Positions 22,673 to 53,477 of a stretch of DNA of 64,000 bases are shown here, piece after piece. Source of the DNA: Spartobacteria bacterium (lineage in GTDB: Bacteria > Verrucomicrobiota > Verrucomicrobiia > Chthoniobacterales > UBA10450); contig PMTM01000012.1 of NCBI GenBank assembly GCA_003167365.1, positions 3,255-67,254 of the forward strand, written 5' to 3'. Position numbers and translations under genes: made by a program. Position 1 is the first letter of the stretch. Each line of letters starts with the position of its first letter. Below the pieces are notes generated by a model. The model had not been told where the DNA came from. It worked only from the letters and a program-made list of their open reading frames with translations, and did not search any database.

Positions 22673-22690
22673 AAAAGAACGAAATTGGAA

Positions 22691-26607: not shown

Positions 26608-26713
26608 CCTTCGTTGCTCGACCTTATCTCCGGAGATCTTAGCATTTCGGGCAACAACAAAGCGGATTTCGACTCCGGTCCGGGTCCGCGGCGGCAACCT
26701 CAAAAACAAAAAA

Positions 26714-27571: not shown

Positions 27572-27632
27572 TTCACACCTCAACTCAAACCAAACCATTA
27601 GCTTATTAACCGTAGGAAACATCCTTATCAAT

Positions 27633-29649: not shown

Positions 29650-30564
29650 TTAAGGATTTTGGCCCGGCGAGACGGATGGCATTGTAAAATCCATTTTGCC
29701 GGCCCGAAGCTTTTCGGCCAACCGGTTGCCTTCTTCAATCTGCGCCGGAGTGATGCCGTTTTCCCACTGGGCCAGAAAGGTTCTTGCCGTCACTTCGCCT
29801 TTTTCCGCGCTCAGCTTTAGCCATGCATACGCCCGCACGGGATCTCGATCGGCGGCGGCACCGGAGACATAATACTGACCGAGATTACTTTGCGCCTTGG
29901 CGTCGCCTTGCTCGGCCGCTTTCCGGTACCAATCGGCTGCTGCCTTCGGGTCCACGCTCACGCCCAATCCATGTTCGGACATGAAGCCCAGCGCGTTCTG
30001 CGCCCACGCGTTACCTTCCCGGGCGGGATGTGTCAGCCATTTCGCCGCATCTGTGTAATTCGGCGGGACGCCTTCATCTCCAAAATAATAAAGGCGGCCG
30101 AGATGAACTTGCGCATCGACGAACCCCTGATCGGCAGCTTTTTGAAACCATTTCGCGGCTTCCTTTGCGTCCTTTTTCACTCCAACGCCGTTCAGAAACA
30201 TGGTTCCGACGGTGTCCTGAGATTGCGGTATTTTCTGATCGGCGGCCACGTGGAACCATTTGAACGCCTCGGCTTCGTCTTTTTTCACCCCCCTTCCCTG
30301 AAGATACATGGTCGCCAGATTATGCTGTGCCTTCCCATGACCTTGCCCAGCGGCTTGCCGGAATAATTGCGCCGCCTTTGCGTCATCCTGCGCGGCGCCG
30401 TTGCCGTAAAAGTAAGCGCGGCCGAGTTGAAATTCCGCCTCGGTATCGCCTCTCGCCACCGCAGTCTTCAACTTTTCGATCTCCGCTGGATCCGCGGCAT
30501 CGACTACGGCGATGGCTAGTATTGCGCTCGCCAATATTGCGATACTCGCCGTGAGCCACGTCAT
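29650..30564 (-). CDS. Sel1-like repeat protein (periplasmic)
   Basis: 304 residues with signal peptide (ASIAILASAILAIAVVDA). At least six Sel1-type 36-residue repeats are visible (AEFQLGRAYFYGNGAAQDD, AQHNLATMYLQGRGVKKDE and similar), a TPR-like solenoid used for protein contacts. The start overlaps the giant exoprotein stop as ATGA (30561-30564), so it is co-translated with it and is likely dedicated to it, perhaps as a periplasmic assembly or folding factor (inference). The last residues are a Pro/Ser tail (MPSVSPGQNP). Confidence 0.9.
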   Translation of the reverse strand: MTWLTASIAILASAILAIAVVDAADPAEIEKLKTAVARGDTEAEFQLGRAYFYGNGAAQDDAKAAQLFRQAAGQGHGKAQHNLATMYLQGRGVKKDEAEAFKWFHVAADQKIPQSQDTVGTMFLNGVGVKKDAKEAAKWFQKAADQGFVDAQVHLGRLYYFGDEGVPPNYTDAAKWLTHPAREGNAWAQNALGFMSEHGLGVSVDPKAAADWYRKAAEQGDAKAQSNLGQYYVSGAAADRDPVRAYAWLKLSAEKGEVTARTFLAQWENGITPAQIEEGNRLAEKLRAGKMDFTMPSVSPGQNP

Positions 30565-36500: not shown

Positions 36501-39500
36501 CTGACTCGCAGGAGTGTCGAAACCGCTGAAGCGATAACCCGCGACGATGGTCGACCCATCGGCTTGCAGTGAGGCAGTCGTTGGAGTTCCGGCTTCCGGG
36601 GTGATCAGGAATGCTCCCGGCAACAACGCGTATCGCGCTGGAAGCAGTGTGTACGTTCCGGCAGGAAGGCCGTTGCTGGCGTTGAGAAAGACCTGCTCGC
36701 CGACTGTCAGATTCCCATTCACGTAACCCTGGTCCGTCCCGAATACGCCGCCCGCGCTTGTGCTATAGGGTGCAAACGGTGCGTACGCTGCCTGGTATCC
36801 CGGGATAACCGCGAAACTGGAAGATGAGCCGAGAATGTCGCTAGTCCCGCCGGTTCCGGAAACGAATTCGTAAGCGTAGAGGTCGCCTCCCCCGCGGACA
36901 TCAATGGTCGATCCCGCCAGATTAGAGACGTTCGCCCCCGCGATGTTGATGGACTTGGTCGGAACGCCTCCAGCGGTTATGTCGATTCCCGTCGGATCAA
37001 TCCAGGATGTCCCGTTAGGGTTCGTGCCGTACGGAATAGTCAGGGCGGTTCCGGTCACGGGATCAACAGCCGAAACGGAAGTGACGCTGGTCGATGAAAG
37101 GGTCACTTGCTGCGCCACCGGCACGGCATGGCCTGTGATTAAATCTATAGGACCTGTTCCAGTGCCGTCCCAACCAATGTTGATCGTGCCGATCGGCGCA
37201 CGTAAAACACCACCATCATTGATGACTGAACTGTAAAGGTTGAGTTGTCCGCCGGCGGACAAAGGCAGTTGGCGATTTCCCGACGCAGTCAACTCGATTG
37301 AACCCTGGTTTGTTACACTACCCACCTTATAATCGTAGGCTGCGATGGTGAAACTTACGGCCGTGGGCGGATAGATCTGGCCAGCCGTGATCGAAAGGTT
37401 GCCGGCTACATCAAAGGTGCCGTCGCCACGAACATCGCCGTTGTTCGCCACCAGATTGGCATTGCCGATTCCCTGAAGCGACAGATTGCCCACATCGATC
37501 AAAGTGGCGGAGATATTTAAGCTGCCCGCGCCGTACATCGGCAAAAAATTGAACGCTCCCGAGCCAAGTAGAAATGCGCTCATCACTTGCTGCGGCTGGA
37601 CCGGTGCGGCAAAGGCCGTTCCGATCTGAACATACGGAGCATTTAGATTGATGGCCGCATCGCCAAAGACGACTCCGCCATTAGCAACACTGATGCTGCG
37701 CCCAGCATCGATCGTGACCGGACCCGAAAACTGGACGAATCCTTGCAACGTAAGTGAAGCCAGTCCGGAGTTGTTAAACTTGTCAGCGGCAAAATAGCCA
37801 AGACCAGCCAGCGGCTGGTTGTTGGCGTCGACCACCGCATGACCAATCGCGGTTTGACCGGCGGGATAGAAAGACGCCGGTATCGTCAGAGCGCTTTGCG
37901 TGACCACCAGTGTTTCGTCGAGCGGTGTGAGTTGGGACAGCGTGAAGCGGCCTGATGAGATCGACAAGCTCCCACCAAAGGCAGACGGGCCACCAGCTGC
38001 ACCTTCAAAGGTCGCATCGGTGAATAGTTCCTCAGTTCCTGTAAGCGTGATGAAGCCGCCGTTGCTGTCGACGCGAGTGGCAACAAACGGAGCTCCAGTT
38101 AGTGATCCAGTGACGGCCGTTCCCCCGAAGCCGGGCGCCAGATCCAGTATGCCAGTCGCGCCCGAAACGTCCATTCGCGACCCATTTTCAGCTACGATGT
38201 TGCCGGAGACCGTGATATTGCCACCAGCCAGCACGCGTCCAGTTCGAAGGTCGAGAGAATTGGGTGTTAGAACAGTCATCCCAGCAGCGGACAGAAAGCT
38301 CGTTGGCCCTAGATCCACGGTTGGGAGAGCCTCTGACGGATTCGCATTCAATACTGTCGACTTGTCGCCAGTGATCGAAATGGTGCCGCCAGGTGCGATG
38401 ATCGACCCTAGAACCGCGACCGTATTGCCCGTGATGGAAATCTTGGCCAGAGGGTCGGTTTGAATGAGCGAGCCCTCACCCATGACAAAGTCGCCGCGAA
38501 CTACCGGTAGAATGCCCGCCGTGATAAAGGGACTGCGAACGCCCGGCGTGCGAAATGACAAGCTCACCGGCGTACGCAAACCTTGCGGCAAGACCGTCGG
38601 CGTCAATGTAACTGTCCCCCGCCCGTTCAGATCGAGATTCGCCAGCAAACTTTGCGCTACTGGTTCGATCGTTGTTCCCGGCGCGATCAAGACTCCGGGG
38701 AGAAATTGATTTGGTTGCGCAGTTGCCGCTCCCAGACCCGTGAGGGTGAAAGAGTCGAACCCTCCCTGACTGAAGAAGTCGGGCGAGAGTAAAAGTGTAT
38801 CGAGGTCGGTGGTGCTTCCTCCCACTTGAATCAATGGCGCTTGGATACTTAATGAGCCGCCCGTGTCCCCGGAATATCCAGTCAGGTTTCCGGCCAGGGT
38901 CAGCTGGCCCCCGAGTAACGACGGAATGTTTGGATCCTGGCCTGATCTGATCGTAATCGCCCCAGCTGTGCCATAGGCGACCTGACCGGTGCCGCTGACG
39001 GTCACGCAACCAGAGACATCAATGCTGCTGCCCTGAGCGAGATCGACATCATAACTATTGACCGTAACGTTTCCGCCGTTCGGCGTATAGGTCGGACTTA
39101 CCGGCAACACCGACGTGGAGCGGTTATCCGTGATCATTCCCGCTGCGTCCAGCGATGCCTTCGCTCCGAGAATGAAATGGCCGCGGGCGGGATCGGGCGG
39201 CGGCGTTTGCGGGTTGAGACTCAGCTTGAGAAAGCCAAGTTGGAATGGCGAAAAATCATAGACATTGAAAGCCAAACTACCGTCGGGCGACGTCAATCTG
39301 CCTTCGATATCAATATTCGCCGCCGAAAAACTGATTCCGTTCGTAAATTTGAAGAGTTTAGTCGTCGGATCAATTTCCCCGCCAATTCCAGTCGTTAACA
39401 CTACATCGGCAGGCACAGTGATGTTTCCGTCGCTATTGTCGATCTTAAGGCTTCCGAAGCCATCGACGTTCACGAAATCGGGTGAAAGAATCACTTCATG

Positions 39501-41963
39501 TTTTCGGTCGGCTCGCAGCGGGATAGGATTACCGGAATTATCGAGAGCAAATGGATCAGCCGGAGGCAGGCTGCCCGATCCGAAAACAATATTCGGCGGC
39601 GTTGGCGAAATGGACAGGAAGGGAACCACGGTCGGATCTTGCGCTTGAAACACCAAAGATAACGAACTCGGTGCTGGAGGTGTCGTGGTTTGGCGCGGAC
39701 CTGCAATCGTGGTGCCGCTAAGCTGTCCATCCACCGCCATGGAAGGCGCCGAAATGGTCAAGCTTCCGCCGTTTCCGCCTTGAATATAGCCCGCTTCGAA
39801 CTGGCCGCTCCCGGGCAACGGATTGCCAAAGGTATCAATCACTCCCCATTTCGTATGAACGGTTGAGAATCCATTAAGAATCCCGTCATAAACCCGATCG
39901 GGCGTTGCCTGGGAAATATCGAAAACATGCCCACCCGAAACCACCTGCGTCGTTTGGACATTGGCGCCGGCATAGTTGATCCAGCCGCCGGAAACGTTAA
40001 TGCTCGATCCGGGTTGCATAATGACCGACTCACCGGCACTAAGTGTCACGTTGCCGCCGTTGGTCGTTAGTTCGCCAACCGTGCGCTGCACCAGATTCAC
40101 ATAGCCGGAAACATCTGCCAATGGTGTGCCAACCCAAGTTTGCCCGTTATAGGTTCCTGTTTTGGTGATGTCGATGTAAACGGTTTGGCCGCGCAGCGGG
40201 CCGTTGCGTTGCAAGGGAGAGTCGGCTAATTCCGGACCTAGCAGCTGCGCGGCGACAATATTTTCCGCAACTGACGCGATCACATCCTGCGAACCAGAAA
40301 CATCGATGATTGCATCGGCATCGAGATAAATTTGTCCGCCGGAAAAAACAAAATTACTGACGGAATAAAAACCGGTGACCGGAATCCAGTTGCCCGCTTC
40401 GATCGTGACGCTGGCGCTGGGCGCGAGCAAGATCGCGCCGGCAGCCTCATGGACGGCCAAGCCTTGGAGATTGATCTGTGAGGAAAGAGCCAGCTGAGTG
40501 CCGACCACTCGGTCTATGCTCGTGAGCTCCGGCAGAATCTGAGTCACACTGTTCGTGCCCAGCGTTACAGTGCCGCTCGATTGGAAAACAAATGGAGGCA
40601 AGTTCGCAGGAACCGAGTTACTGCCGAAGACAAAGCTGTTGGCGTTGAAATCGGCGAGCAGATCGATCCGTCCATTCAGGGAGACAGAGGTCGAACTGTT
40701 AATGAAGCCAAATTGATCGACCATTTTGCCTGCGATCGTCACGTCAGCTCGCGGCGCGTCGATCAAACCGCTGTTTGTCGCGGTACCGGCGTAAGGAGCC
40801 AGAAGGGAGAGAGGGTCTGCAACCGCGCCGACGTAGACGTCCAAGCCGCGTAAGCTCGGATCGCTACTATCATGCGCGCCAAATCCAACCTGCAGCCCGG
40901 CGGCAAGAATAGTTTGCCCATCGGGTGTCGTAATTGTTCCGTCATTTGTTACATTCGCTCCGATCAACGCAACGCGGCCGCCGACGTGATCTGCTGATGT
41001 CGGACTGGTGATCTGTGCGCCTGCTTGAACGGTTACATCGCCATAATGTCCATCCGGCGTGTTCGAGGTAGGGGGAGTGAAGGTCGGGGTACCGCCGTTG
41101 TTGCCGCCCGGAGCCAACGGCAAAGCCGAGAAAAGAAACTGGTTATCAGGATTGTTGAGTAACCCGCGCGCGATCAGATTATCATTAATCGGCAGCGCTG
41201 AAGCGACGAGCGCGTGCAAATTAATCTGGGATGAGCCGCCGAAAATGATTCCATTTGCGTTAATGACATAGACTTGGCCAATCGCATCGAGCGATCCAAG
41301 AATTTGCGATGGCACACCAGAGGGATCGTTGACTTTGTTGAACGCGATCCACTGACTCGCGTTGGCACCGCCCGCGGTTTGGTCAAAGGTTAAGTGCGTG
41401 TCCCTGCCGATGTTAAACGTCTGCCAATTCAGCAGTGCCTGTTGCGCTGTCTGAACGATCGAAACGTTTGTTTGTGCGCCGCTAGTTGTTTGTGTCGGTA
41501 GACTTGCGCCTTGCCAAAGATCGGGGTTATCGCCTGGGCTTGGATGGGCAAGATCGACAGGAACTCCGGGCGCAATTTGCAAACCGCCGACGCCCAAGCC
41601 ATTTGGAACATTCGGTAATTGCTGACCAGGATGATTCGGGTCCAATCCAAGATTGTTTGCGCCGGTAACCGCCGCGGCATGAGCCGCTGCCTGCATCGCC
41701 TGCACGGCCTGCAGAGCCTGCGTCGTTCGCGCAAGCGTATCGTGTCCGTTAAGTCCCGCCTGTACAGCCGCAGCTGTGGGATTTCCCGTTTCGGGCGCGG
41801 TGCTGTGCGATTCCTGAGACCCGCCGCCTCCGCGCAGGATGTCGCCGGCCAGCAGTGTAAACCATGGCGGGACCGCCAGAAATAATGTCAGAAATAAGGC
41901 GAGCGTGCTTTGAATTGCGCCGGGCCGTCGACTTGTTCGTGAACGGAAGTTGTGTGAAGACAT
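30561..41963 (-). CDS. Giant filamentous-haemagglutinin-type TPS exoprotein (TpsA)
   Basis: 3800 residues. A long basic n-region and hydrophobic core (STLALFLTLFLAVPPWFTLLAGD) form the signal. The TPS secretion domain at about 160-290 (QTAQQALLNWQTFNIGRDT and INANGIIFGGSSQINLHALVAS) is the FHA N-terminal domain recognised by a TpsB transporter. The rest is low-complexity beta-helix with GNVTLSAG- and GDVTLTA-type strands. The C-terminus is a very charged tail (DDQDEEQRRRKKKQQEQPQ). No C-terminal toxin domain is seen. It lies 153 nt after the TonB-linked operon, with its own PHO-box in the gap. A PEP or LPXTG signal is absent. The family is annotated as a filamentous haemagglutinin outer-membrane protein in many genomes. 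Confidence 0.93.
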   Translation of the reverse strand: MSSHNFRSRTSRRPGAIQSTLALFLTLFLAVPPWFTLLAGDILRGGGGSQESHSTAPETGNPTAAAVQAGLNGHDTLARTTQALQAVQAMQAAAHAAAVTGANNLGLDPNHPGQQLPNVPNGLGVGGLQIAPGVPVDLAHPSPGDNPDLWQGASLPTQTTSGAQTNVSIVQTAQQALLNWQTFNIGRDTHLTFDQTAGGANASQWIAFNKVNDPSGVPSQILGSLDAIGQVYVINANGIIFGGSSQINLHALVASALPINDNLIARGLLNNPDNQFLFSALPLAPGGNNGGTPTFTPPTSNTPDGHYGDVTVQAGAQITSPTSADHVGGRVALIGANVTNDGTITTPDGQTILAAGLQVGFGAHDSSDPSLRGLDVYVGAVADPLSLLAPYAGTATNSGLIDAPRADVTIAGKMVDQFGFINSSTSVSLNGRIDLLADFNANSFVFGSNSVPANLPPFVFQSSGTVTLGTNSVTQILPELTSIDRVVGTQLALSSQINLQGLAVHEAAGAILLAPSASVTIEAGNWIPVTGFYSVSNFVFSGGQIYLDADAIIDVSGSQDVIASVAENIVAAQLLGPELADSPLQRNGPLRGQTVYIDITKTGTYNGQTWVGTPLADVSGYVNLVQRTVGELTTNGGNVTLSAGESVIMQPGSSINVSGGWINYAGANVQTTQVVSGGHVFDISQATPDRVYDGILNGFSTVHTKWGVIDTFGNPLPGSGQFEAGYIQGGNGGSLTISAPSMAVDGQLSGTTIAGPRQTTTPPAPSSLSLVFQAQDPTVVPFLSISPTPPNIVFGSGSLPPADPFALDNSGNPIPLRADRKHEVILSPDFVNVDGFGSLKIDNSDGNITVPADVVLTTGIGGEIDPTTKLFKFTNGISFSAANIDIEGRLTSPDGSLAFNVYDFSPFQLGFLKLSLNPQTPPPDPARGHFILGAKASLDAAGMITDNRSTSVLPVSPTYTPNGGNVTVNSYDVDLAQGSSIDVSGCVTVSGTGQVAYGTAGAITIRSGQDPNIPSLLGGQLTLAGNLTGYSGDTGGSLSIQAPLIQVGGSTTDLDTLLLSPDFFSQGGFDSFTLTGLGAATAQPNQFLPGVLIAPGTTIEPVAQSLLANLDLNGRGTVTLTPTVLPQGLRTPVSLSFRTPGVRSPFITAGILPVVRGDFVMGEGSLIQTDPLAKISITGNTVAVLGSIIAPGGTISITGDKSTVLNANPSEALPTVDLGPTSFLSAAGMTVLTPNSLDLRTGRVLAGGNITVSGNIVAENGSRMDVSGATGILDLAPGFGGTAVTGSLTGAPFVATRVDSNGGFITLTGTEELFTDATFEGAAGGPSAFGGSLSISSGRFTLSQLTPLDETLVVTQSALTIPASFYPAGQTAIGHAVVDANNQPLAGLGYFAADKFNNSGLASLTLQGFVQFSGPVTIDAGRSISVANGGVVFGDAAINLNAPYVQIGTAFAAPVQPQQVMSAFLLGSGAFNFLPMYGAGSLNISATLIDVGNLSLQGIGNANLVANNGDVRGDGTFDVAGNLSITAGQIYPPTAVSFTIAAYDYKVGSVTNQGSIELTASGNRQLPLSAGGQLNLYSSVINDGGVLRAPIGTINIGWDGTGTGPIDLITGHAVPVAQQVTLSSTSVTSVSAVDPVTGTALTIPYGTNPNGTSWIDPTGIDITAGGVPTKSINIAGANVSNLAGSTIDVRGGGDLYAYEFVSGTGGTSDILGSSSSFAVIPGYQAAYAPFAPYSTSAGGVFGTDQGYVNGNLTVGEQVFLNASNGLPAGTYTLLPARYALLPGAFLITPEAGTPTTASLQADGSTIVAGYRFSGFDTPASQPLFSSFEVAPQTVVRQRAQYTDFSANTFLKQSALTNNQSVPRLPIDAGYLLLDATQSMNIQGALLAQAPTGGRGGEVDISSPLDILIAGSGTAPEAGVLVLNSSELSAFGAESLLIGGFRTTSSTGTTVTVTTDEITVDNAGAPLSVRDLILAANSNLTLAPGADIEASGSLSSATSLQFGNLSIPGSGDGVLLRVSADPNASISRLGVDSSTVPREVIGANTLLAGASVTLDSTYGTSLDPTATIRGTAVNLDSGQISIQLPNGIVSQPTAGLVLAGVALQNVESVQSLSLLSYSSIDIYGSGTIKASNALQLHAGEIRGFNNGGAVDFAAKNITLDNVANASAPGAVASPSGTLQFDAGTIQIGSNQLNVDQFAALTLNASGGILTQGSGGFATQGDLTLITPLITGALGSTQSLTASGAVHLEAPGSPSIATVIAGLGANLTISGASLSVDTNISLPSGQLTLHATNGDLVIGSASPSTLDVSGTAQTFFDLVKYTSGGQINLIADNGAVNVDSGGTINIAAQSGGGNAGTLSVSAPNGSFIVNGTLNGQGGANGLNGSFSLDVGSLSSLGNLDAMLNTASFTQSRSIRVRTGDVVVDGTATSHTFDLSADQGSIDVTGSIDASGATGGTINLIAYGSVTLSSGSILTVAGQNFDDAGKGGAVSLEAGSETNGTYSTTAVVDIENGSTIDLSVASNNANSASLGDFTGTLHLRAPQTASSTDLQINPIDGTILNASSILVEGYKIFSATAGSINNQEANVFANGTTFGGNSAAISARLLANNASLAPVTVVVPGAEIINPNGDLTLGSPNSDSSSDWDLSTYRFGPNNAPGVLTLRAAGNLVFYNALSDGFTSSAYNAVLLAQNSLLPANVQSWSYRLVAGADFSAVDFQQVEPLSLLAQSSGSLQLGKNYGNNVFGVSGPSALTSTAVATRYQVIRTGTGDIDISAGRDVQLLNQFATIFTAGTRVSDPTMGGTFDLPKTDPVGQSTGNLGVAQQARPGYLPQYSYAGGNVTISAQRDISHLTQMTDGTVIDDSSRELPNNWLYRRGYIDPTTGLFAPVTRNTGNDVGSTTWWVDFSNFFEGVGALGGGNVTLTAGHDVSNVDAVAPTNARMPGKDSMGHAIAPNAANLVELGGGDVTVTSGNDINGGVYYVERGQGTLTAGNSIHTNSTRSPSRTTLVTPDDILPSITWLPTTLFLGKGSFDVSARGDVLLGPVANPFLLPEGVNNVFWYKTYFSTYASTDAVNVSSLTGDVTLRENATLPTASSPILQAWLSAISLLGTISGQQSASFYQPWLRLDENSVTAPPFTTVVSLMPSTLRVSAFSGNLNVDGNLTLFPAPNGTVDLAAKGAINGLQPNGLVNASLTTWMASTINLSDADPARIPGITSPFAFRTVLATPTGSSANQSTDLDFLTFIDNLFAETGSTQGAAAVLQAKQALHAQGILHADDPNPIHIYAGTGDISGFTLFSGKAARVVASKDITDIALYIQNDKPSDISVVAAGRDIIAYDPNSSLRVSAQAVGNEVQNGPAAGDIQISGPGTLEVLAGRNLDLGVGPNNPDGTGVGITSIGNARNPFLPFVGADVIAGAGIDIANGLAHSTLDFKTFVDQFLDPTNDSVQSARYLPDLGTLLGLTGASDSEIWSRFDQLPPEKQDQLALDIFYLVLRDAGRDHNDPSSPGFGQYTNGLAAIAALFPGNTWQGDISLTSREIKTANGGNISLFAPGGALNVGINVTGGQAADQGILTEDGGNISIFTHSDVNVGTSRIFTLRGGNEIIWSTVGNIDAGSSSKTVQSAPPTRVLIDPQSGDVKTDLAGLATGGGIGVLETVAGVPPADVDLIAPVGTINAGDAGIRVSGNINIAALLVLNVGNIQVGGSSAGVPTVAAPNIAGLTNASTTTAATSDAAAQIANQNNAPIAQQDTPSIISVEVIGYGGGDDQDEEQRRRKKKQQEQPQTSAEQQSLQVSNTQNSSRIPHR

Positions 41964-42116: not shown

Positions 42117-42731
42117 TTATTGCCGCTCCGGCTTCGCCCGCTGGTCGGCGATTTTGTCCTGATAATCCTGCACGAGATTCTCCAGTTTCACCCGAGCGAT
42201 GCCCGTAAATGGCTCGCGTGCGGCCAGCGCGTCACCGAGTCCAAATTTCTCGTAACGTGTCAAAATTTCGTTGCCGAGTTTGAACAACTCCGCGTTTTTC
42301 CGTTCTCGATCTTCGAGCTTGTGCTTAAGAACAATCGACTCGCCAGCCAGCTTTGCGCGTTCCGCTTCCGTTTTCTGCGCAGTGGCAGTGACCTGTTCGT
42401 AGCCGGCTTTCCATTTACCAAGCGCCTCCTTCGTTTCGATCAGTTCTTTTTCTTGATCGCCGGCTTTCGAGTTAAGGGTATCGATCTGTGCCTTGTCGGT
42501 CGCGGCCTGTTTTGTCAGCACGTCGATTTTCCCGGTGAGTGTTTTCTTTTCCTGCTCGAACTGTGCTTTATCGCTGAGCAGGTTATTGCGTTCGGTTTCG
42601 TCAGAACGCAGCCGAAGCGTTAAAGTACGCAACGTTTCGCGCAAGCGCGCTTCATCGGCTGCGGTCGCATTTCCGGCGAGAAGCAAGCAGGTAACGGTGG
42701 AGGCAATGAATAATCGGATTTTCGGTTTCAT
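42117..42731 (-). CDS. Periplasmic coiled-coil protein of the TPS operon
   Basis: 204 residues starting MKPKIRLFIASTVTCLLLAGNATAAD, a signal peptide. The body is almost entirely helical with heptad-rich Lys/Glu segments (ETERNNLLSDKAQFEQEKKTLTGKIDVLTKQ, ELIETKEALGKWKAGYEQV), ending in NLVQDYQDKIADQRAKPERQ. This is a long coiled-coil spanning much of the chain. Its ATG shares one base with the porin stop (TAATG), so it is translationally coupled and last in the TpsB operon. A role as a periplasmic bridge or chaperone for the exoprotein is inference. Confidence 0.75.
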   Translation of the reverse strand: MKPKIRLFIASTVTCLLLAGNATAADEARLRETLRTLTLRLRSDETERNNLLSDKAQFEQEKKTLTGKIDVLTKQAATDKAQIDTLNSKAGDQEKELIETKEALGKWKAGYEQVTATAQKTEAERAKLAGESIVLKHKLEDRERKNAELFKLGNEILTRYEKFGLGDALAAREPFTGIARVKLENLVQDYQDKIADQRAKPERQ

Positions 42732-44779
42732 TAGAATTTCGCGTTGAAGTCGAACTGCAGAATGTCGTTGCGAAGGGTGGGGCCTCCGATCTCGTCTGCA
42801 CTCATCCAACGCAAAAAAATTGAGGTGCGAGATGACAGTGCGAGCGATCCAAATAGCGTGTAGCCCTTGAGGTTGGTGCCTGCGAAATTGCCGCCAAAGT
42901 CCGAATCAACAAAACCGTCGACAGTCGCATCCGACTCGACGTAGCGATAACTGATGCCAACATTCCAGTCCCATAGCTTCTCGAACGCGGGGGTCCCCGC
43001 CTTCAGGCCAACGATCCAACCAATGTTACCGCCAGCGAAGGTGCCCGGCTTACCATTGGGTTGATTCGGTCCGCGATTGTTGATCGCCTTGCTGTTGATG
43101 TCCTGCCAATTGAAGGCAACGTTGTTGAGATAAGCGCCGAACAACGATAGGTGAAACGGGTCGAAATGCGCGTAATCGAGTTTGCCATCAAAGTCCACCA
43201 CGCGGAAAGGCGTAGCTAACCCAAAATACTGGAACTGATTGGTCGTGCCGAAGCCGTTATCGGCCGTCGGAATGATATCGCGGATCGGGAAGTAAGTGTT
43301 TCCATTCTGCGCAAATGATGGCCGGCTATCGTCCGTGTTACCTTGATCAGAGGCGGTGAGGGGAACGAATGGATCGGACAATTTGCCTTCTACATTTTCG
43401 AAATGGTAATAAGCGCCGGCGATTGTTGCGCTAAAATCCTTGTTAAACCGGAGATTGGTGCCGAGCTGACCGGCAAACAGGTATTTGTCTTCGCTTGAAA
43501 ATTTGTCCGGGCGATTCGAAGAGAAGTTCAGTTCGGTATTGAAGATTGGGAAACCACCGACGACAGCGAACGGCGTCACTCCTTCGTGAACACGATACCT
43601 TCCCGATATCGCAAGGCCATCGAATCCCAAATCTTCGTACCACATAATTCCACTGGTCGTAAAAAATGGGTTGTCAAAACGGCCGAGGTTGACCTGGAAA
43701 TCCCGGCTCGGTGTTCCTCCAGTTTCGTAACGCAGAAACGCGCGATCGAGCCAAATCTGGTATTTGCTGAAGTCACCCCCCTGCCCTCCATTGGCGGTCC
43801 CAAAGGACTGATTCGGCGATACTGGCGTGTCTGTGTCGCCCGTGGCAAGACGCAGGCCCATGGTAAAGCCATTCTCCAGATCCATTTCAGCGCCAACCCG
43901 CACCCGCAGACGAAAGCGCTCTCGGTCTTGATTGGCATTTAACTGCGGCGAGAAGGTTGTGCCGGTCACATCAAAAGGCGCTCCGGTGTTGATAGCGTTG
44001 AAACTCGGAAACGCGCCGGTATCGTCATTGCCGTCAGGAAAGAAAATGCCCTCGTATCTAATTCGAATATCCGCAAAAGGTGTTATGCGCGTCGCCCAAG
44101 CCGGGAAGCTTCGCGGCGCGGCCCAGTTTTCTTCACGTGCCTGTTCCATCACCTCCTGGCGGATTTCGTCGCGCAATTGCTGCTTTACGACTTCCGGCAC
44201 ATAAGTGACGCGCACCGCATCTTCCTCATCCAACGCTTCGCGTTCGGGAATGCCGTCCGCCGGAGGCGCAACTGTCGTCGCAGCGGGTGTCGTGGTTAGC
44301 AACGGCGGCTCCGGAGTAATGAGCGATGGATCGCTCTCTTCTGGCCGCGACGGGTGCGTTCGTTCCTTTGCTGCAAGTGTTCGTGCGATCACGGCGTCTT
44401 CTTCCGCCTGATTGATCAACTCGTCCGCATCCTCTTGCGTCAACACGCCGCGCTGCACGAGTCGATGAATGAGATTGATCGTGACACTCTGCGACGGCGT
44501 CGGCTTCGGCACCGCCGAACCCGTGGTATCCGCGGCGGCCTGAAGGCCTGGTTGATTAGTTGCGACGAGGTTGCCGCCTTCGAACGACATTTGCGGGATC
44601 GGATTCGTTTTCTGTGAAACGATTTCGTTCTGAGCCAAAGTTGGTGGGTCGTGCGCGACTCTATCGACTGGCGCAGGCGGTGGATCCGCGGCGAACATTG
44701 ACAACAGTGCGGTCGCGAAAAATCCGACAGTAATGAACGCCGCGACTCGTTGAGCAAAACGTGATTTGGTGAAAAACAT
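42731..44779 (-). CDS. Putative outer-membrane porin
   Basis: 682 residues. Signal peptide (FITVGFFATALLSMFAADPP), a Pro/Thr-rich linker with a helical segment (LIHRLVQRGVLTQEDADELINQAEEDAV, then VPEVVKQQLRDEIRQEVMEQAREE) and a beta-barrel domain of about 430 residues (ADIRIRYEGIFF..., MGLRLATGD, FLRYETGG, YRYVESD, LRWMSADEIG) ending in a terminal aromatic residue (DFNAKF), the usual outer-membrane signature. The helix-plus-barrel arrangement resembles the OprP/OprO and DUF3373-type porins. In a PHO-controlled operon a phosphate or organophosphate porin is plausible, but selectivity residues cannot be assigned. Confidence 0.8.
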   Translation of the reverse strand: MFFTKSRFAQRVAAFITVGFFATALLSMFAADPPPAPVDRVAHDPPTLAQNEIVSQKTNPIPQMSFEGGNLVATNQPGLQAAADTTGSAVPKPTPSQSVTINLIHRLVQRGVLTQEDADELINQAEEDAVIARTLAAKERTHPSRPEESDPSLITPEPPLLTTTPAATTVAPPADGIPEREALDEEDAVRVTYVPEVVKQQLRDEIRQEVMEQAREENWAAPRSFPAWATRITPFADIRIRYEGIFFPDGNDDTGAFPSFNAINTGAPFDVTGTTFSPQLNANQDRERFRLRVRVGAEMDLENGFTMGLRLATGDTDTPVSPNQSFGTANGGQGGDFSKYQIWLDRAFLRYETGGTPSRDFQVNLGRFDNPFFTTSGIMWYEDLGFDGLAISGRYRVHEGVTPFAVVGGFPIFNTELNFSSNRPDKFSSEDKYLFAGQLGTNLRFNKDFSATIAGAYYHFENVEGKLSDPFVPLTASDQGNTDDSRPSFAQNGNTYFPIRDIIPTADNGFGTTNQFQYFGLATPFRVVDFDGKLDYAHFDPFHLSLFGAYLNNVAFNWQDINSKAINNRGPNQPNGKPGTFAGGNIGWIVGLKAGTPAFEKLWDWNVGISYRYVESDATVDGFVDSDFGGNFAGTNLKGYTLFGSLALSSRTSIFLRWMSADEIGGPTLRNDILQFDFNAKF

Positions 44780-44796: not shown

Positions 44797-45465
44797 TTAG
44801 TGAGGACGTCGCGCGGTAACGCGAAGCGTGATTGGCGCGGGCATCCCGGCTGGTGGCGGCTCCTGCAATTGCAGACCGGTCAGAACTTCGTCGCGAAGGG
44901 CGCTGTCGAGTGCCGGATCGCCGGTTGAGCCAGCAATCTGCGCGCGATTGATTCTGCCGGTTGCATCGGGCCAGACCCGAACGTTGACGCTCAAACTGGC
45001 GCTACGTGTCTTCCGATTGCGCCGGAGCGCCTCTTCGATTTTCGTTTGTACCTGACTGGCGTACCAACCCCACTTGCTGCCGTTGCCGCCGGGGCCAATT
45101 CGTCCGTTTCCCGCTTTGTCGCTCAGGCCGAAGCTATCTGGTCCGTCACCCTTGATGCCTGTTCCTAGTGGCGGCTCATCTTTCGGTGGCGCTTCCTTCG
45201 GCTGTTCTTCTTTGATCATCGGTTGTTCCATTTTTTGCTCGTCTTGTGGTGGCAGCGGAGGCGGCGTCATTTGCTGCGGCGGAGGTGGTGGCGGCGGCAA
45301 ACTGACCATGGTGATTGGGTCGCGACGCGACGATCCACCTCCACTCGACGCGAGTTTCGCGACAACGATGACGCACACGAGCAATACTCCCGTAACGATG
45401 ATCGCGACGCGGTATCGTCGCAGGAAATTCTGCGGCGGTGGTTCAAGTTCATCATCGAAATCCAT
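44797..45465 (-). CDS. TonB-family energy transducer
   Basis: 222 residues. A membrane anchor near the N-terminus (VAIIVTGVLLVCVIVVAKL), a Pro- and Lys/Glu-rich spacer (PPPPPPPQQMTPPPLPPQDE) and a C-terminal TonB-type domain (about 140-222: YASQVQTKIEEALRRN, DATGRINRAQIAGSTGDPALDSALRDEVLTGLQL) fit the TonB/TolA class. It transmits proton-motive force from ExbB/ExbD to outer-membrane transporters. It sits 17 nt after exbD and 17 nt before the porin, inside the TPS operon, so its partner should be one of these outer-membrane proteins. Confidence 0.88.
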   Translation of the reverse strand: MDFDDELEPPPQNFLRRYRVAIIVTGVLLVCVIVVAKLASSGGGSSRRDPITMVSLPPPPPPPQQMTPPPLPPQDEQKMEQPMIKEEQPKEAPPKDEPPLGTGIKGDGPDSFGLSDKAGNGRIGPGGNGSKWGWYASQVQTKIEEALRRNRKTRSASLSVNVRVWPDATGRINRAQIAGSTGDPALDSALRDEVLTGLQLQEPPPAGMPAPITLRVTARRPH

Positions 45466-45482: not shown

Positions 45483-45884
45483 CTACTTGCCTTGCGGTTT
45501 TGTCGCCAAACCCACCTGGGAAATTCCCAGCCGTCCGATTACATCGAGCACATCCATCACAGCCTGGTATTGCGTGAGGCTGTCGCCTCTAACGACCACT
45601 GGAAAATCCGGTGTCTGCGCTTTTTGAGAATTCAGTCGCTGCTCAAGCTCGGGAATCGTGACTGGAATGGTGTCGAGGAAAATTTTGCCCTCGTTGTTGA
45701 TCGTGATCGCCTTCGTTTGCGGCTTCGCCAGGCTGGGCGAAGTGCTCGCTTTGGGCAGGTTCACTTTCAAACCCTGCACCGTCGCCGTCGTCATCAGGAT
45801 GAAGATGACGAGGAGCACGTAAGCGAGGTCCAACATCGGCGTGATGTTGATATCGTCGTACGGTTTATCGCCTTGAACTTGCAT
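45483..45884 (-). CDS. exbD: ExbD/TolR-family biopolymer transporter
   Basis: 133 residues with one membrane helix (MLDLAYVLLVIFILMTTATV) containing the proton-channel Asp (D19 in NITPMLDL), followed by the periplasmic domain. This is the usual ExbD length. The protein forms the motor with the ExbB-type protein encoded 16 nt upstream. It is followed by the TonB gene, completing the energy-coupling set. Confidence 0.9.
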   Translation of the reverse strand: MQVQGDKPYDDINITPMLDLAYVLLVIFILMTTATVQGLKVNLPKASTSPSLAKPQTKAITINNEGKIFLDTIPVTIPELEQRLNSQKAQTPDFPVVVRGDSLTQYQAVMDVLDVIGRLGISQVGLATKPQGK

Positions 45885-45900: not shown

Positions 45901-47790
45901 TCATGCGATCAGCTCCAACGGCATCTCGCTCCCCACGCGATCGCGCGCGCCATTCGTGCGTCCGCCGTAGTACTCCGCGATTTTGGTGACGAACTCGTCG
46001 ACGAAAACTTGCATGTCGCTCGTGGCGTCCTTGACGCGTGACAACAAATAATTGTAACCAAACAAGGCGGGAATCGCGACGATCAGGCCGGCAACGGTTG
46101 CGGCAAGAGCGGCGGCAATGCCGGGTGCAATTGCGTTCACGTTCACATCGCCCTGCGCGGCTATGGCGGCAAAGGTGATCATGACGCCGATGACCGTCCC
46201 GAGAAGTCCGAGAAATGGGCCGCCGGAAATCGCGATTGTCAGCAGGACCATCAAGCGATTCAGTTTCTGCGATTCGCGGACGAGGCCACCGTCGAGACTC
46301 GCGCGAATCGCCTGGATCGAGCGCGCGGAAAGGATGTGCAATTCCGCTGCTCCCTCTACAGCCAGACGATGGCGGATCTCTTCTGCGCCAATTTTGTAAA
46401 TGCGATAAACGGACGCGTTCTTTACAATCTGCCGTTCTCGTGCGTCGATGCGCCCGCCCAGCGTGATGACTTTGCGGGCATCCGCGTCACCAAGAAAACT
46501 CAGATCCGCGGCAACATGTTTCCAGTCGGCAAAGAATTGCGCGTTGCCTTTCGTCGCCGCTGCCAGATAACGCGCCTTATTTACCATCACGACCCAGCTG
46601 ATGGCTGACATCACGACGAGAATGCAGATGACGAACCAGCCGTCTGCGGTGAGTGAACGCAGGATTACGCCGACGTAGCCGCCGCTGAACCAACTCGATG
46701 CTTGTTCGTCCTGTCCAAAGCTAAGGAGCTTCGATGCTTTGTCGGCACCCTGGCTGAGCGCAGCGACTTTGATAAATCCAATTGGTCGCACGACCTTGGA
46801 AATTTCTAACTCATCCATCTCGCCGGAGAAACCGGAGCCCTCGTTCGCCGGGTCTCCGCCGAGACTTGCTACGCTATTCAACGCCGGAATTGCGGCATTC
46901 AGCGTGGCCGTGCTCTGGCCATCTATATATAGAGTGATGGTCGATCCAGCCGCGGTGACCGCCACATGATGCCAACTATTCGGTGCCATTGGCGGTGCGC
47001 CTTGCGTTCGTTGCATCCCGCTGGCACCGCTAACTTCGACAAATGGAACGCCGTTATCGGCACCGATAACAAATACACTGGCGCCGTCGCGTCGGCTAAA
47101 AATGATCGCATTCGACTGCGCAGCGATCGGTTTGATCCACGCTGACCACGTCAGGGTTGCGCCTTCACTCCAGGTCAGCGATTCCGAATTTGGAATGGCG
47201 ATCGTATTTTGGCCGTCAAGACGAATGCCGGGGCCGATCAACGCACCGGAAACGGGAACGCCGGGGTTCTGCGCGTTGTTGCCATAAGTCGTCGAATCAT
47301 GCGCGGGCGCGTTGTTCTCGGCGAAGTGATAAACGAGGACCGTATTAACATCGTAAGTCCCTTTTGGATCATCGACACGCGTCGCGCTCGAACCGGCATT
47401 GCCGTAATAGAGCCAAACGCTCGTCTTTGCGCCCGGCTTCAAGTCTGGAATTTTTACCCAGACGAACGCTTCATTGAGCAGCGCATCGTATCGCTCGATG
47501 TGGTAAGTGAGCAACGTTTTGTCGTCCGCTGCGACAAAGCGAATGTCACTGCCGTCTTCCTTCGCGTCGGTGAATCGGAAATTTCCATCATGTAAACGAA
47601 TCAAAATCGCCGTCGTGCCGATTTGGTCCGCGATCGGCGCGCCTGCGGTTGATGTGTCGATGTCGATCTTCTTGCGAATGGTCCAGTCACTGTTCCAGCG
47701 CGCGCGCGCATTGCTTACGAAGGAAAGCAACAACAGGCAAACGAGAAGACTGGCGAAGCGAGAACTGGAAGTGAAGAGATTCGATTTCAT
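45901..47790 (-). CDS. DUF2341-LamG-ExbB fusion protein
   Basis: 629 residues. After a signal peptide (LLVCLLLLSFVSNARA), a DUF2341-like domain (about 30-130: WTIRKKIDID, DIRFVAADDKTLL, VWVKIPDL, SVWLYYGNA) precedes a concanavalin-like LamG domain (about 140-320). Then come a linker, a transmembrane helix (FVICILVVMSAISWVVMV) and an ExbB/MotA/TolQ proton-channel domain with two further helices (LMVLLTIAISGGPFLGLLGTVIGVMITF and AALAATVAGLIVAIPALF). The extra periplasmic lectin-like part is absent from ordinary ExbB. DUF2341-ExbB proteins are known from other genomes. Here, next to TpsB, it might sense or bind a glycan or the exoprotein. Confidence 0.88.
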   Translation of the reverse strand: MKSNLFTSSSRFASLLVCLLLLSFVSNARARWNSDWTIRKKIDIDTSTAGAPIADQIGTTAILIRLHDGNFRFTDAKEDGSDIRFVAADDKTLLTYHIERYDALLNEAFVWVKIPDLKPGAKTSVWLYYGNAGSSATRVDDPKGTYDVNTVLVYHFAENNAPAHDSTTYGNNAQNPGVPVSGALIGPGIRLDGQNTIAIPNSESLTWSEGATLTWSAWIKPIAAQSNAIIFSRRDGASVFVIGADNGVPFVEVSGASGMQRTQGAPPMAPNSWHHVAVTAAGSTITLYIDGQSTATLNAAIPALNSVASLGGDPANEGSGFSGEMDELEISKVVRPIGFIKVAALSQGADKASKLLSFGQDEQASSWFSGGYVGVILRSLTADGWFVICILVVMSAISWVVMVNKARYLAAATKGNAQFFADWKHVAADLSFLGDADARKVITLGGRIDARERQIVKNASVYRIYKIGAEEIRHRLAVEGAAELHILSARSIQAIRASLDGGLVRESQKLNRLMVLLTIAISGGPFLGLLGTVIGVMITFAAIAAQGDVNVNAIAPGIAAALAATVAGLIVAIPALFGYNYLLSRVKDATSDMQVFVDEFVTKIAEYYGGRTNGARDRVGSEMPLELIA

Positions 47791-47819: not shown

Positions 47820-49514
47820 TCAAAAATCAGCCCAGACCCGAAAGGTCATTTGCAAAGCAAACGCGGCCGTTCGCGTTTGACTGATCAGCGGTACAGCCGC
47901 GTCGAGCGAGGCGTTGAAATGATTTTGAAAGCGAATTCGATCACCGACGCCGACGCTGGCGAGACCAAACGACGCGTCCTGTTCCGGGAGCGGACTAATC
48001 AGCATGAGGTAACCGCCGTCCGCAAAAACGTAGAACCTCCATTCATTCGCGTCGGCCCCAAGCGCGCCGAGCAACGATGGAGTGCGAAGTTCGACCGAGC
48101 CAAATGCGCCGTTGTCGCCGAGAGTTTCGGCCTCGAGGTAACCACGCACAGTTGCAAGTCCACCCCCTGCAAATTGCTCGCTGCTTACCAGCGGCTGATC
48201 GGAAACCTGGCCCTGTATTTTTCCGAATACCTGAAACCCAGCCGGAAGGTCATGCTGATGGGAGAGGTCGCTTCGCAAATAGATGAAATTCCCGTGCGCG
48301 TCGAAACGATTAAGATCGAACTCACGCGGACTGCTGCCCATTCCGCGCACGTGAAAAGTCACGCCGGCGTTGGCACTTGTTTGTGAATCTTTCGTCGCCC
48401 AAGTCGCGCTGTAATTAGCGCTAAACGGGTAATAAGTCACAGGCGTAAGCCCGTCTATGCTTAGGTTCGTGAAGTGCTTGAAATCAAAACCAAAGGTGAT
48501 CGAATGAAAGAAACCAGTTTCGGGCGGCAACGTGATGATGGCGCGTTCACCAATTACTTCGCCGCGTCCGGAGACCGCGATATCGCCGAGGGTAGAAACG
48601 TTCGATTCCTGTTTGACGCCTTGCACAACCAACGTGAGCCAGCTGGGGTCAGCGAACCGAATGATATAGTAACCGGAAAAAACTTTTACCTCGTTTAGAT
48701 TTTCTGGTGAAAATTGAACGCTGCCGCCGATCGAGTGGCCAAGTTGCCAAAGATTATTGTAACTTACCGACTCGTTTACCCGTAGCGGAGTCGTGTCTGC
48801 GCTGTAGCGATTATTGAGCTCGACGCTGCCATGCAGCGGCATGGTGTCTTTTACGGTGAGATCGACATCTACCGTTCCAGGTACGACTCCCGTTTTTAAC
48901 GATGGCGTGATGCGGCGATCCGGCCACTGATTCAGTGCGACGATATCGCTTGAGACTTCGTTGAAATCTGGAACGCCGCCTTCAGCGAGAGACGGAGCTG
49001 CTTCTTTGATTTTGTGAAGTGAAAAGTAACGTGAATCACGCACTCGCAAACGTCCCACCGTGTTTTCTGCTACCTTTAAGACAATGATGCCATGTGCAGC
49101 CCGTTGTGGCGGCACTTGAACCGAAACGGTCTGATAACCTTTCGCTTGATACGCTTTCTCGAGCGCAGCGCGTGCTTGCTCGACATCCTGCGCGGTTCGG
49201 CCAGGACCGAGATATGGGTACACGGCCTCCTCAATTTCGATCTGGCTCAAGTGATGAGCGCCGAGAACTCGATATTCCCGAATCAAACGTCTCGGCGCAT
49301 CCGCCGTGGCGGGCGCAGACAGGGTTGCGTTGGCCAACGTGTTGTTTTCTGGACTAGGATTTTCCTGGCGTGTCGTTAAAGGAGCCTCCGCAGCAGCGCA
49401 CTGAAGCCAATTTCCCAACAGCAAGATCGACATCGCGACAGCGAAAGGAACTCCGTTGCGCACATTGCGCTCCAGAATCCAAAAGAAAACGCACTGTATC
49501 GGGGATGCACGCAC
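47820..49514 (-). CDS. TpsB-family outer-membrane transporter (FhaC/ShlB/HecB)
   Basis: 564 residues from the upstream ATG; an alternative ATG at 49433 begins the signal peptide core (SILLLGNWLQCAAAEA). The POTRA-like region (about 70-190: REYRVLGAHHLSQIEIEEAVYPYLG, EQARAALEKAYQAKGYQTVSVQVPP) precedes a 16-stranded barrel with VELNNRYSADTTPL, the conserved loop-6 motif VRGY (GGLATVRGYLEAE) and a C-terminal VWADF with terminal Phe. It exports the giant TpsA exoprotein, encoded by the same gene set. It is first in the operon with ExbB, ExbD and TonB, unusual for a classical TPS, and has a PHO-box upstream. Confidence 0.93.
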   Translation of the reverse strand: MRASPIQCVFFWILERNVRNGVPFAVAMSILLLGNWLQCAAAEAPLTTRQENPSPENNTLANATLSAPATADAPRRLIREYRVLGAHHLSQIEIEEAVYPYLGPGRTAQDVEQARAALEKAYQAKGYQTVSVQVPPQRAAHGIIVLKVAENTVGRLRVRDSRYFSLHKIKEAAPSLAEGGVPDFNEVSSDIVALNQWPDRRITPSLKTGVVPGTVDVDLTVKDTMPLHGSVELNNRYSADTTPLRVNESVSYNNLWQLGHSIGGSVQFSPENLNEVKVFSGYYIIRFADPSWLTLVVQGVKQESNVSTLGDIAVSGRGEVIGERAIITLPPETGFFHSITFGFDFKHFTNLSIDGLTPVTYYPFSANYSATWATKDSQTSANAGVTFHVRGMGSSPREFDLNRFDAHGNFIYLRSDLSHQHDLPAGFQVFGKIQGQVSDQPLVSSEQFAGGGLATVRGYLEAETLGDNGAFGSVELRTPSLLGALGADANEWRFYVFADGGYLMLISPLPEQDASFGLASVGVGDRIRFQNHFNASLDAAVPLISQTRTAAFALQMTFRVWADF

Positions 49515-49581: not shown

Positions 49582-49599
49582 GTGGCAAAAATGTGACAG
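49582..49599 (-). promoter_or_regulatory. PHO-box upstream of the TpsB operon
   Basis: On the minus strand, CTGTCAC-ATTT-TTGCCAC, an 18-nt match to the E. coli consensus of two 7-nt half-sites spaced by 4 nt. A further TGTAAC follows about 20 nt downstream. It lies 67 nt before the transporter ATG at 49514. Confidence 0.75.
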
Positions 49600-49822: not shown

Positions 49823-50605
49823 ATGACGCTTCCAACGGACGTTTTGATGAATCGCTATTCCGCGCAGGTCGCCGCGGAGGATCACTCTAGCGCTTCATCG
49901 ACCCACTTCTATATGCCGCGCCAGCCAAGCAAGAATATTCTCATAATCGAAGACGAACAGGATGTGATCGACCTCCTGGCAATACATCTTCTCAAAGACG
50001 CCACTTTCAACGTTTCGACAGCGACGAACGGTTTGGCTGGCTTGGAGAAAGCGCGCAGCGAACTGCCTTGGATGATAATCCTCGACCTCATGCTGCCAAA
50101 ATTATCTGGCATGGAAGTTTGTAAGATTCTGAAAGCTGATCGAGTCACACGGCACATCCCGATCATTATGTTGACAGCGAAAGCCTCTGAGAAGGATCGC
50201 GTCGCCGGTCTTGAGCTTGGCGCCGACGATTATGTGACAAAACCGTTCAGCCCGCGTGAAGTTCTCCTGCGAATCAAATCGATCGAGCGCCGCCGAAGCG
50301 ATCAAGGTGAACAGAAAATGGTGTGCGGCATGATCACGATTGACCCCCTTCGGCACCGAGTAGACGTGGAGGGGAAATTGATTCGACTTACTACCGCTGA
50401 ATTCAAATTGCTTACCATGCTCATGAAAAGACCGGGCCAATTGATGTCGAGAGAAATGCTGCTCACCGGAGCCTGGGGCTACGAAACCATGATTAACACA
50501 CGCACGGTCGATACCCATATCCGGCGATTGCGCCAGAAATTGGGTCGAGGCGCCAACTCTGTCGAAACGGTTCGAGGCTTCGGGTACCGTTTGCGCGAAA
50601 ACTAG
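49823..50605 (+). CDS. OmpR/PhoB-family response regulator
   Basis: 260 residues. A receiver domain starting KNILIIEDEQDV has the acidic pocket (E44/D45), the phosphoacceptor Asp in MIILDLMLPKLSG and the conserved Thr/Lys of TAKAS and VTKPFSP. A winged-helix output domain follows (about 165-260: LIRLTTAEFKLLTMLMKRPGQLMSREMLL, TRTVDTHIRRLRQKLG, VETVRGFGYRL). The order is that of PhoB. The first 30 residues are an N-terminal extension and a start at 49913 is also possible. The flanking phoU, the PHO-box triplet upstream and the surrounding boxes support a PhoB role. No sensor kinase gene (phoR) is in the window. Confidence 0.88.
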   Translation: MTLPTDVLMNRYSAQVAAEDHSSASSTHFYMPRQPSKNILIIEDEQDVIDLLAIHLLKDATFNVSTATNGLAGLEKARSELPWMIILDLMLPKLSGMEVCKILKADRVTRHIPIIMLTAKASEKDRVAGLELGADDYVTKPFSPREVLLRIKSIERRRSDQGEQKMVCGMITIDPLRHRVDVEGKLIRLTTAEFKLLTMLMKRPGQLMSREMLLTGAWGYETMINTRTVDTHIRRLRQKLGRGANSVETVRGFGYRLREN

Positions 50606-50638: not shown

Positions 50639-51319
50639 TCATAGCGAATTATTTGGATGCCGAATGCCTTCGGCGACGACCGCGTAAATCGCATCTTCGG
50701 CGATGTTCTTCGCGTGATTGCCGACTCGTTCCAGGTGTCGCGCGATGAATATTAGATTGAGGCGATCACTGATTTGTTCCGGATGAAGGACAATTTGCTT
50801 CGTTAGTTGCGTTTCAATCAGTCGACTAACTTCATCTAACTTGCGGTCGCGCTTTAGCAGTGAATGTGCGAGATCGACATCGGAATTTGTAAAGGCACTG
50901 ACGCTGTCGCGAAAGAGAATCCTCGCCTCCAAGAACATGAGATCGATTGATTTTGTTTCGGATAGGATCCTTGAGTTTCCAAGCTTGCGCCCACGCCGGG
51001 CAATCTTGGTCGCTTGATCGGCGACCCGCTCGAGGTTGTTGCCGAATCTCATGGTCGCAATTACTTTCCGCAAATCCGAGGCGACGGGTTGAAACCGCAC
51101 CAATATTTCCACACCGTCGCCGTCTACCTTTTGCTCGAGCGCGTCGATCTCGTCTTCGTCGGCGATAGTAGCGACGCAGGCTTCTTGATCACAATGGAGC
51201 AAACAGGCCATGGCATTTTGCAAACTTCGTTCCGTGAGGCTCGCCATCATCGAAGCATCCGCATGCAGAGCAGCGAGCGCATCGCCGAAATCGGTGAGGA
51301 TATGTTTGGTCTCAGACAT
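50639..51319 (-). CDS. phoU: Phosphate signalling protein PhoU
   Basis: 226 residues built of two three-helix repeats, each carrying the acidic metal-binding helix of PhoU ([19 protein letters not shown] and [22 protein letters not shown]). PhoU represses the phosphate regulon when the PstSCAB transporter signals sufficiency. Its start codon overlaps the stop of the truncated pstB remnant, as in intact pst-phoU operons. It is convergent with the response-regulator gene. With no pst transporter here, how it senses phosphate is unclear unless a second pst locus exists. Confidence 0.95.
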
Positions 51320-53141: not shown

Positions 53142-53156
53142 CGTTTTGTTGAGCCC

Positions 53157-53477
53157 TTAATGCGATGTACCCGGATGTGTTACCGAATGTAGGTCGTCAA
53201 TCAGGGAATCGATCTTGCGCAAATCTTTGCGCCGACCTTTTTCGGGTCTCAATTTGCGTTTCCGCAACAGGATAGTTATATCGCGAATTTCCTGCACAAG
53301 TTCTCGGGGCAATTTTTCGACGCTTTCATAAGCCCCGATTTTATTGGCGCTTTCGGCCAGAGTGATTTCAAGACGTGCCGAATAAGCACGGAGTGTCGCC
53401 CGCAACTCCTGCCGCAACACGGCTATTTCGGAGGCGAGAATTTGCGTCGGGCCCGACTTCTCGTTTTTCTTCTTCAT
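53157..53477 (-). CDS. Small coiled-coil protein downstream of LpxH-like gene
   Basis: 106 residues starting MKKKNEKSG at 53477, chosen because it overlaps the preceding gene's stop as ATGA. The protein is helical and very charged (ILASEIAVLRQELRATLRAYSARLEITL, ELVQEIRDITILLRKRKLRPEKGRRKDL), without signal or membrane segment. No known family. Translational coupling to the phosphoesterase suggests a partner role. Confidence 0.6.
   Translation of the reverse strand: MKKKNEKSGPTQILASEIAVLRQELRATLRAYSARLEITLAESANKIGAYESVEKLPRELVQEIRDITILLRKRKLRPEKGRRKDLRKIDSLIDDLHSVTHPGTSH

Follow-up and report, generated by a model that had tools for sequence, protein, structure and literature searches.

A DUF2341-LamG-ExbB fusion in a conserved phosphate-linked cassette, best read as part of a motor-equipped variant of two-partner secretion

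The cassette and its genes

The window, meaning the whole stretch of 64,000 nucleotides analysed, carries a cassette in the order TpsB, fusion ExbB, ExbD, TonB, Porin_5, coiled coil, (PpiC) and DUF3739-type TpsA, in which all the genes from TpsB to TpsA lie on one strand (-). The following genes were assigned.

47820..49514 (-): TpsB transporter with POTRA_2 and ShlB barrel; translation probably starts downstream of 49514
45901..47790 (-): fusion ExbB gene of 629 aa (signal peptide, DUF2341, LamG, ExbB/TolQ channel)
45483..45884 (-): ExbD, with the conserved TM Asp (INITPMLDL; TPM-x-DL motif)
44797..45465 (-): TonB/TolA-like protein with a TM, a Pro-rich linker and a TonB_2 C-terminal domain
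42731..44779 (-): Porin_5 outer-membrane protein, with a modelled 16-strand barrel and a cassette-specific N-terminal region
42117..42731 (-): small exported coiled-coil protein, starting at about 42731
30561..41963 (-): TpsA exoprotein of 3800 aa, with a TPS/NPXG N-domain and a C-terminal DUF3739
30846..31181 (-): DUF3739 (TpsA residues 3595-3706), a mark of the TpsAs accompanying the cassette

The hallmarks of two-partner secretion (TPS) are present, namely a TPS/NPXG TpsA, with an N-domain matching PF05860 (65.2 bits) and TIGR01901, and a TpsB with POTRA and ShlB/FhaC barrel. The window's genome encodes six ExbB-type channels but only a single TpsB, TPS-domain protein, Porin_5 and DUF2341, these last four all inside the cassette. 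Genes for a DUF3450 TtpB or a TPR TtpD were absent from the window cassette. Classical systems (FhaB/FhaC, HMW, HxuA/HxuB) share the TpsA N-domain and the POTRA and ShlB/FhaC barrel of TpsB, but are described as independent of any energy source, whereas the window cassette adds a dedicated ExbB-ExbD-TonB set, Porin_5 and the C-terminal DUF3739 on TpsA.

The fusion protein and its channel

The fusion gene is an unbroken ORF (45901-47790, -) over 629 aa, encoding in order a signal peptide, DUF2341, LamG, TM1 and the ExbB/TolQ channel.

47311..47556 (-): DUF2341 Pfam match (residues 79-160), E 2e-16
46792..47214 (-): Laminin_G_3/concanavalin-like domain (residues 193-333), E 3e-21
46576..46647 (-): TM1 (about residues 382-405), from the model, joining the periplasmic module to the channel, with a topology taken from ExbB/TolQ analogy
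46009..46383 (-): MotA_ExbB channel domain (residues 470-594), E 4e-27, with Thr532 and Thr565 invariant and Ala560 at the place of the pore Glu

Judged by the curated Pfam cut-offs, all three domains were above threshold, with 60.6 bits against 23.4 for DUF2341 (PF10102), 76.7 against 27.6 for the concanavalin-like sandwich Laminin_G_3 (PF13385) and 94.9 against 22.9 for MotA_ExbB (PF01618); the best NCBIfam match, TIGR tolQ, fell under its own cut-off. A confident AlphaFold2 model (mean pLDDT 89.2) contains an N-terminal hydrophobic helix (11-24), a DUF2341 beta domain (residues about 32-148), a second beta domain (about 149-336), TM1 and the ExbB/TolQ helices. TolQ chains were among the top fold matches of the channel part, and TolQ was its best match by sequence and by fold. 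For the LamG part (residues 149-346) the fold match was domain 4 of the arabinanase AbnA, at a Z of about 24 and an rmsd of 2.0 over 188 residues, in a structure solved with an arabino-oligosaccharide; toxin binding domains, which share this common fold, ranked lower and have no bearing on function here. The concanavalin-like domain of the preliminary description thus stands, and its modelled fold additionally resembles a carbohydrate-binding module. As regards a possible calcium site or carbohydrate-binding residues, the LamG motifs are retained and Asp165 is invariant in the homologue alignment. By analogy with the ExbB arrangement, the signal peptide, the periplasmic DUF2341-LamG module, TM1 and the cytoplasmic loop would be placed as in other channel subunits, in agreement with the earlier proposal that the extra domains are periplasmic.

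Sixty-two non-redundant homologues (42-64% identity), spread over several phyla, have the fusion at full length, and it was present at all 87 loci analysed, which confirms it as real and rules out a chance fusion, a frameshift or a sequencing artefact. The architecture is conserved and not rare, and a DUF2341 appendage was already mentioned in print in 2025, with no function given (PMC12505986).

The fusion shares with ExbB/TolQ energisers the channel fold and the TM2/TM3 Thr residues, but differs from them by a periplasmic N-terminal extension of about 345 aa and by the change of the pore Glu to A/S/G. When the channel residues, whose absence had been named as a possible objection, were compared, Thr532 (TM2) and Thr565 (TM3) were invariant in 86/86 family sequences, and the ExbB/TolQ pore Glu (APGIAEAL) was found to be replaced in every one of the same 86, by Ala (66), Gly (14) or Ser (6). 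The missing Glu counts against the motor reading. It is also missing from TolQ-like paralogues of the same verrucomicrobial order and is therefore not a strict mark of the family, which weakens its loss as a special trait of the fusion. The invariant Thr pair and the retained ExbD Asp indicate that the channel is probably active, though with a changed pore side chain.

Distribution and co-occurrence

In a first search of relatives, the full-length fusion was found, among genomes of the same family, only in the window's own, and six others of the order had one, a patchy distribution. In GTDB genomes, 80 fusion loci were located, belonging to Verrucomicrobiota, Anaeromyxobacter and the Alpha-, Beta- and Gammaproteobacteria; these were picked by similarity to the whole fusion and cannot alone exclude fusions elsewhere, the later searches being less biased. 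With profiles built in this analysis, TpsB and ExbD were detected at 87/87 fusion loci and, where the contig was long enough, TonB at 79/79, Porin_5 at 74/74 and the coiled coil at 69/69. TpsA lay within about 10 kb of the machine at only 31/65 loci, which counts against the reading of the complex as a motor for TpsA. At none of the 87 loci were DUF2341-LamG and the ExbB channel seen as separate genes inside the cassette, a separation in relatives having been raised as a further objection. Tandem ExbD pairs follow the fusion at four loci (L030, 14394-15214; L082; L097; L118, 10649-11465).

Among 289 sampled genomes of the phylum, the fusion was present in eight (G000, G024, G109, G163, G201, G274, G277 and G238, the last cut off by a contig end), and full-length Porin_5 and DUF3739 TpsA were each found in exactly the same eight; nearly all other Porin_5 matches covered only profile positions beyond about 140-150. 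On plasmids, 11 of 72,556 carried the fusion and the same 11 carried the cassette-type Porin_5, a twelfth match being remote (23% identity). These 11 also headed the TpsB list, where identity fell from 34% to 29% at the next match. TpsB adjoined the fusion in 9/11 of them; in an Aquabacterium plasmid TpsA sits between TpsB and the fusion, and in a Methylomagnum plasmid TpsB lies 27 kb from the fusion. The annotated Methylosinus, Aquabacterium and Klebsiella plasmids have an identical order from the fusion on, with PpiC and YbjN genes in two. Three plasmids (L193, L195 and L196) bear DUF3739 TpsA genes without the machine, and in L193 a gene for a sigma-70 family factor directly follows the TpsA. 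A single machine may serve several TpsAs.

The conservation of the cassette and its co-occurrence with Porin_5 and DUF3739 TpsA sustain the link to an exoprotein exporter that had been proposed. They also bear on the view that DUF2341-LamG is a passive appendage on an ordinary ExbB, the cassette being merely co-regulated with no mechanical coupling. Such extensions are common on channel subunits (PMC12505986), but the cassette genes strictly occur together and in order across several phyla, and DUF2341 is conserved to the same degree as the channel (median pairwise identity 0.58, against 0.59 for the ExbB part), which makes this view very improbable.

Sister channels without the module

Three verrucomicrobial ExbBs (L133-L135) have a channel part 50-52% identical to that of the fusion and a different N-terminal region, which in L133 contains a weak DUF3450-like stretch. 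Their genes cluster with those for ExbD, TonB and TPR proteins, and in L133 also with a DUF3450 gene (L133 7092-12165). This arrangement resembles the Vibrio TonB2 system (TtpB-TtpC-ExbB2-ExbD2-TonB2-TtpD), which is likewise a TonB system, with an ExbB-like accessory protein and further periplasmic partners on which its function depends (PMC6957404), but differs in its DUF3450 and TPR partners, its iron-siderophore clients and the lack of TPS genes and of DUF2341-LamG. In the ExbB tree the three were nested within the fusion clade, beside the fusion from one of the same genomes, and a tree with the fusions monophyletic to their exclusion was rejected (AU p 0.0013, an optimistic value because the grouping was first noticed in the tree itself). 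The simplest reading of these sequences is that DUF2341-LamG was lost when the channel left the TPS cassette. The three ExbBs amount to a natural domain swap.

The loss of the module in sister ExbBs outside the cassette suggests that DUF2341-LamG follows the client and not the motor, and supports a role of the domain for the exporter instead of the channel. It also bears on the proposal that the collar binds glycan strands and anchors the stator to peptidoglycan, with no contact to the exporter. Related A/B-subunit complexes do anchor to peptidoglycan, which favours this proposal, as does the match of the LamG part to a carbohydrate-binding module. Nevertheless, the sister ExbBs keep ExbD and TonB yet lost the module, which is thus not a general need of the stator, and peptidoglycan anchoring appears improbable.

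Phosphate regulation

Upstream of tpsB stands a Pho-box-like repeat, itself upstream of a weak promoter-like pair, and phosphate-related genes adjoin it.

49582..49599 (-): Pho-box-like 18-bp direct repeat, CTGTCAC-ATTT-TTGCCAC, upstream of tpsB
49823..50605 (+): PhoB-type (OmpR-family) response regulator, divergent from tpsB
50639..51319 (-): PhoU

The pattern TGTCACN5YGYMAC had seven matches in the window's own genome and none when reversed; the matches include the gaps before pstS-pstC-pstA-pstB-phoU and before phoU-ppk, as well as the tpsB cassette and a site at window position 26569 ahead of a PEP-CTERM gene. Across the family, a Pho-box-like site was located upstream of 14/35 verrucomicrobial cassettes (0.12 expected from shuffles) and in none inside the gene; the independent test is the whole-genome count, because the pattern was built from some of the same cassette sites. 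At the remaining loci, mostly from Proteobacteria, no such site was found (0/44), and a Pho box common to all phyla was rejected, the upstream sites occurring only in verrucomicrobial cassettes.

Other features of the surroundings were also recorded. Beyond phoU, a CHAD-domain protein (polyphosphate-associated) and a calcineurin-like phosphoesterase (52182-54349) extend a phosphate-themed neighbourhood. A PEP-CTERM protein (26507-28883) has a Pho-box-like site at 26569-26585 and lies next to a gene for a protein with a PstS-like start (THIYVTGSTAFRSS) and no Pfam family match; in L032, L138, L139 and L140 (in part) a similar gene pair immediately precedes the cassette. The PEP-CTERM gene is adjoined by an 812-aa transposase-like ORF followed by an ATPase-like ORF, of MuB type by eye (22685-26394). 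Three more Pho-box-like sites lie elsewhere in the genome (C10:9052, C13:20419 and C1:440281).

A Pseudomonas aeruginosa locus with exbBD and tonB homologues was described in 2009 (PMC2729926), and the phdA-pdtB-exbB2D2-tonB4-PA0696-PA0701 operon was placed under the control of PhoB, which binds homologous promoters (PMC4971064). The window cassette matches the pdtB-exbB2D2-tonB4 operon by gene set. This PUMA3-regulated locus (pdtA/phdA-pdtB-exbB2D2-tonB4-PA0696 to PA0701) has in common with the cassette TpsA, TpsB, ExbB, ExbD, TonB, exported proteins and PpiC, and its phosphate-starvation expression through PhoB (PMC2729926, PMC4971064) may have a parallel in the Pho-box-like site here. The P. 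aeruginosa exporter genes also depend on cell-surface signalling and on the ECF sigma factor VreI, whereas next to the window cassette lie this site and a gene for a PhoB-type regulator. No paper was found giving a role to the DUF2341 appendage or to the P. aeruginosa exbBD/tonB homologues, and none that treats DUF3739 or, for Verrucomicrobia, TPS together with TonB; the coverage of the literature was partial, and an earlier suggestion of energised TPS is possible.

Candidate docking points and the direction of transport

Two conserved motifs were noted in the putative partners of the complex.

44183..44215 (-): conserved RVTYVPEVVK motif ahead of the Porin_5 barrel, a candidate docking strand
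30693..30713 (-): VEVIGYG C-terminal tail motif of TpsA, conserved across phyla in DUF3739 TpsAs

In cassette Porin_5 proteins, a conserved (R/H)VTY(V/I)PExVK stretch and a helix stand immediately before the 16-strand barrel. The DUF3739 TpsAs examined (L183-L197), from Verrucomicrobiota, Burkholderiales, Methylosinus and Klebsiella, end in flexible-looking tails with (V/L)(E/R)V(L/I)G(Y/F)G or close variants. No TonB box or conserved docking motif was found in the TpsB linker before POTRA, which speaks against the motor reading. Over 58 loci, partial distance correlations were 0.57 for ExbB-ExbD, the positive control, 0.43 for TpsB and the Porin_5 barrel, 0.40 for TonB and the Porin_5 barrel and 0.03 for TonB-TpsB; the signal is modest and the sequences compared are not independent. 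These values suggest coupling of TonB and of TpsB to Porin_5 rather than of TonB to TpsB, as leads and not as proof.

The main rival to a motor for export is an energised uptake of the HxuABC kind, in which a surface TpsA would capture a phosphorus-containing ligand and TonB would power its import through Porin_5. HxuA-HxuB-HxuC provides the precedent of a TPS working with a TonB-dependent importer, and uptake would also suit the phosphate-starvation control of the P. aeruginosa homologue, the Pho-box-like site here, the TonB-Porin_5 correlation and the modelled 16-strand barrel of Porin_5, which has OprP/OprO, the phosphate porins, as fold neighbours alongside many general porins. Against it, the Porin_5 model contains no plug domain of the TonB-receptor type, the periplasmic PpiC and the coiled-coil gene better suit export of a giant protein, and at least one genome (G238) has two DUF3739 TpsAs, as would fit a shared exporter. 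Energised uptake is accordingly considered unlikely.

A proposed mechanism

In the proposal with motor and export, which we rate as evenly poised between right and wrong, the fusion would supply the channel subunit (stator A) to an ExbB-ExbD-TonB complex reserved for phosphate-starvation-induced TPS, energising a late step for TpsA. Five copies around ExbD would form the proton channel, with a periplasmic collar of DUF2341-LamG acting as a client-side adaptor that keeps the motor near its outer-membrane partners or the exoprotein. TonB would pass force to the outer membrane, most likely via Porin_5 with its extra N-terminal region and VTYVPExVK motif, and the energised work would be a late step by which the giant TpsA (DUF3739, VEV(L/I)G(Y/F)G tail) is exported, anchored or released. 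The coupling of motor to TpsA, the pentamer collar, the docking on Porin_5, TpsA export as the energised step and the ligand of the collar are all inferred. The earlier interpretation is supported in part; its idea that the module could bind a glycan or the nascent exoprotein and thereby gate proton flow stands as a hypothesis. A more specific version, a TPS subtype driven by the proton motive force, is possible but leans towards the doubtful; here the ExbB-pentamer collar would grip TpsA (e.g., its DUF3739/VEVLGYG tail) or TpsB-Porin_5 while TonB pulls, so that the giant exoprotein is actively exported, anchored or released under phosphate starvation. Against any motor stands the view that in type Vb secretion no gradient is necessary, translocation having been reconstituted without energy input (2017 review, PMC5422565).

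Implications for type V secretion

Overall, the cassette is best read as two-partner secretion in a variant equipped with a motor. The standard teaching is that type V secretion requires neither ATP nor a gradient; here a proton-channel protein with two domains of sugar-binding type is a constant member of a conserved gene set for the export of giant surface proteins under phosphate starvation, which suggests that an export route deemed energy-free can have a motor of its own. Across a widespread lineage, the TPS pair goes inseparably with a dedicated proton-driven complex that has its own periplasmic adaptor, and this bears on what drives type V secretion. The cassette also offers a likely setting for four features that had no function, the DUF2341 on ExbB, the N-terminal region of Porin_5, DUF3739 and the VEVLGYG tail. 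All four are thereby linked to phosphate starvation, in two phyla that are far apart.
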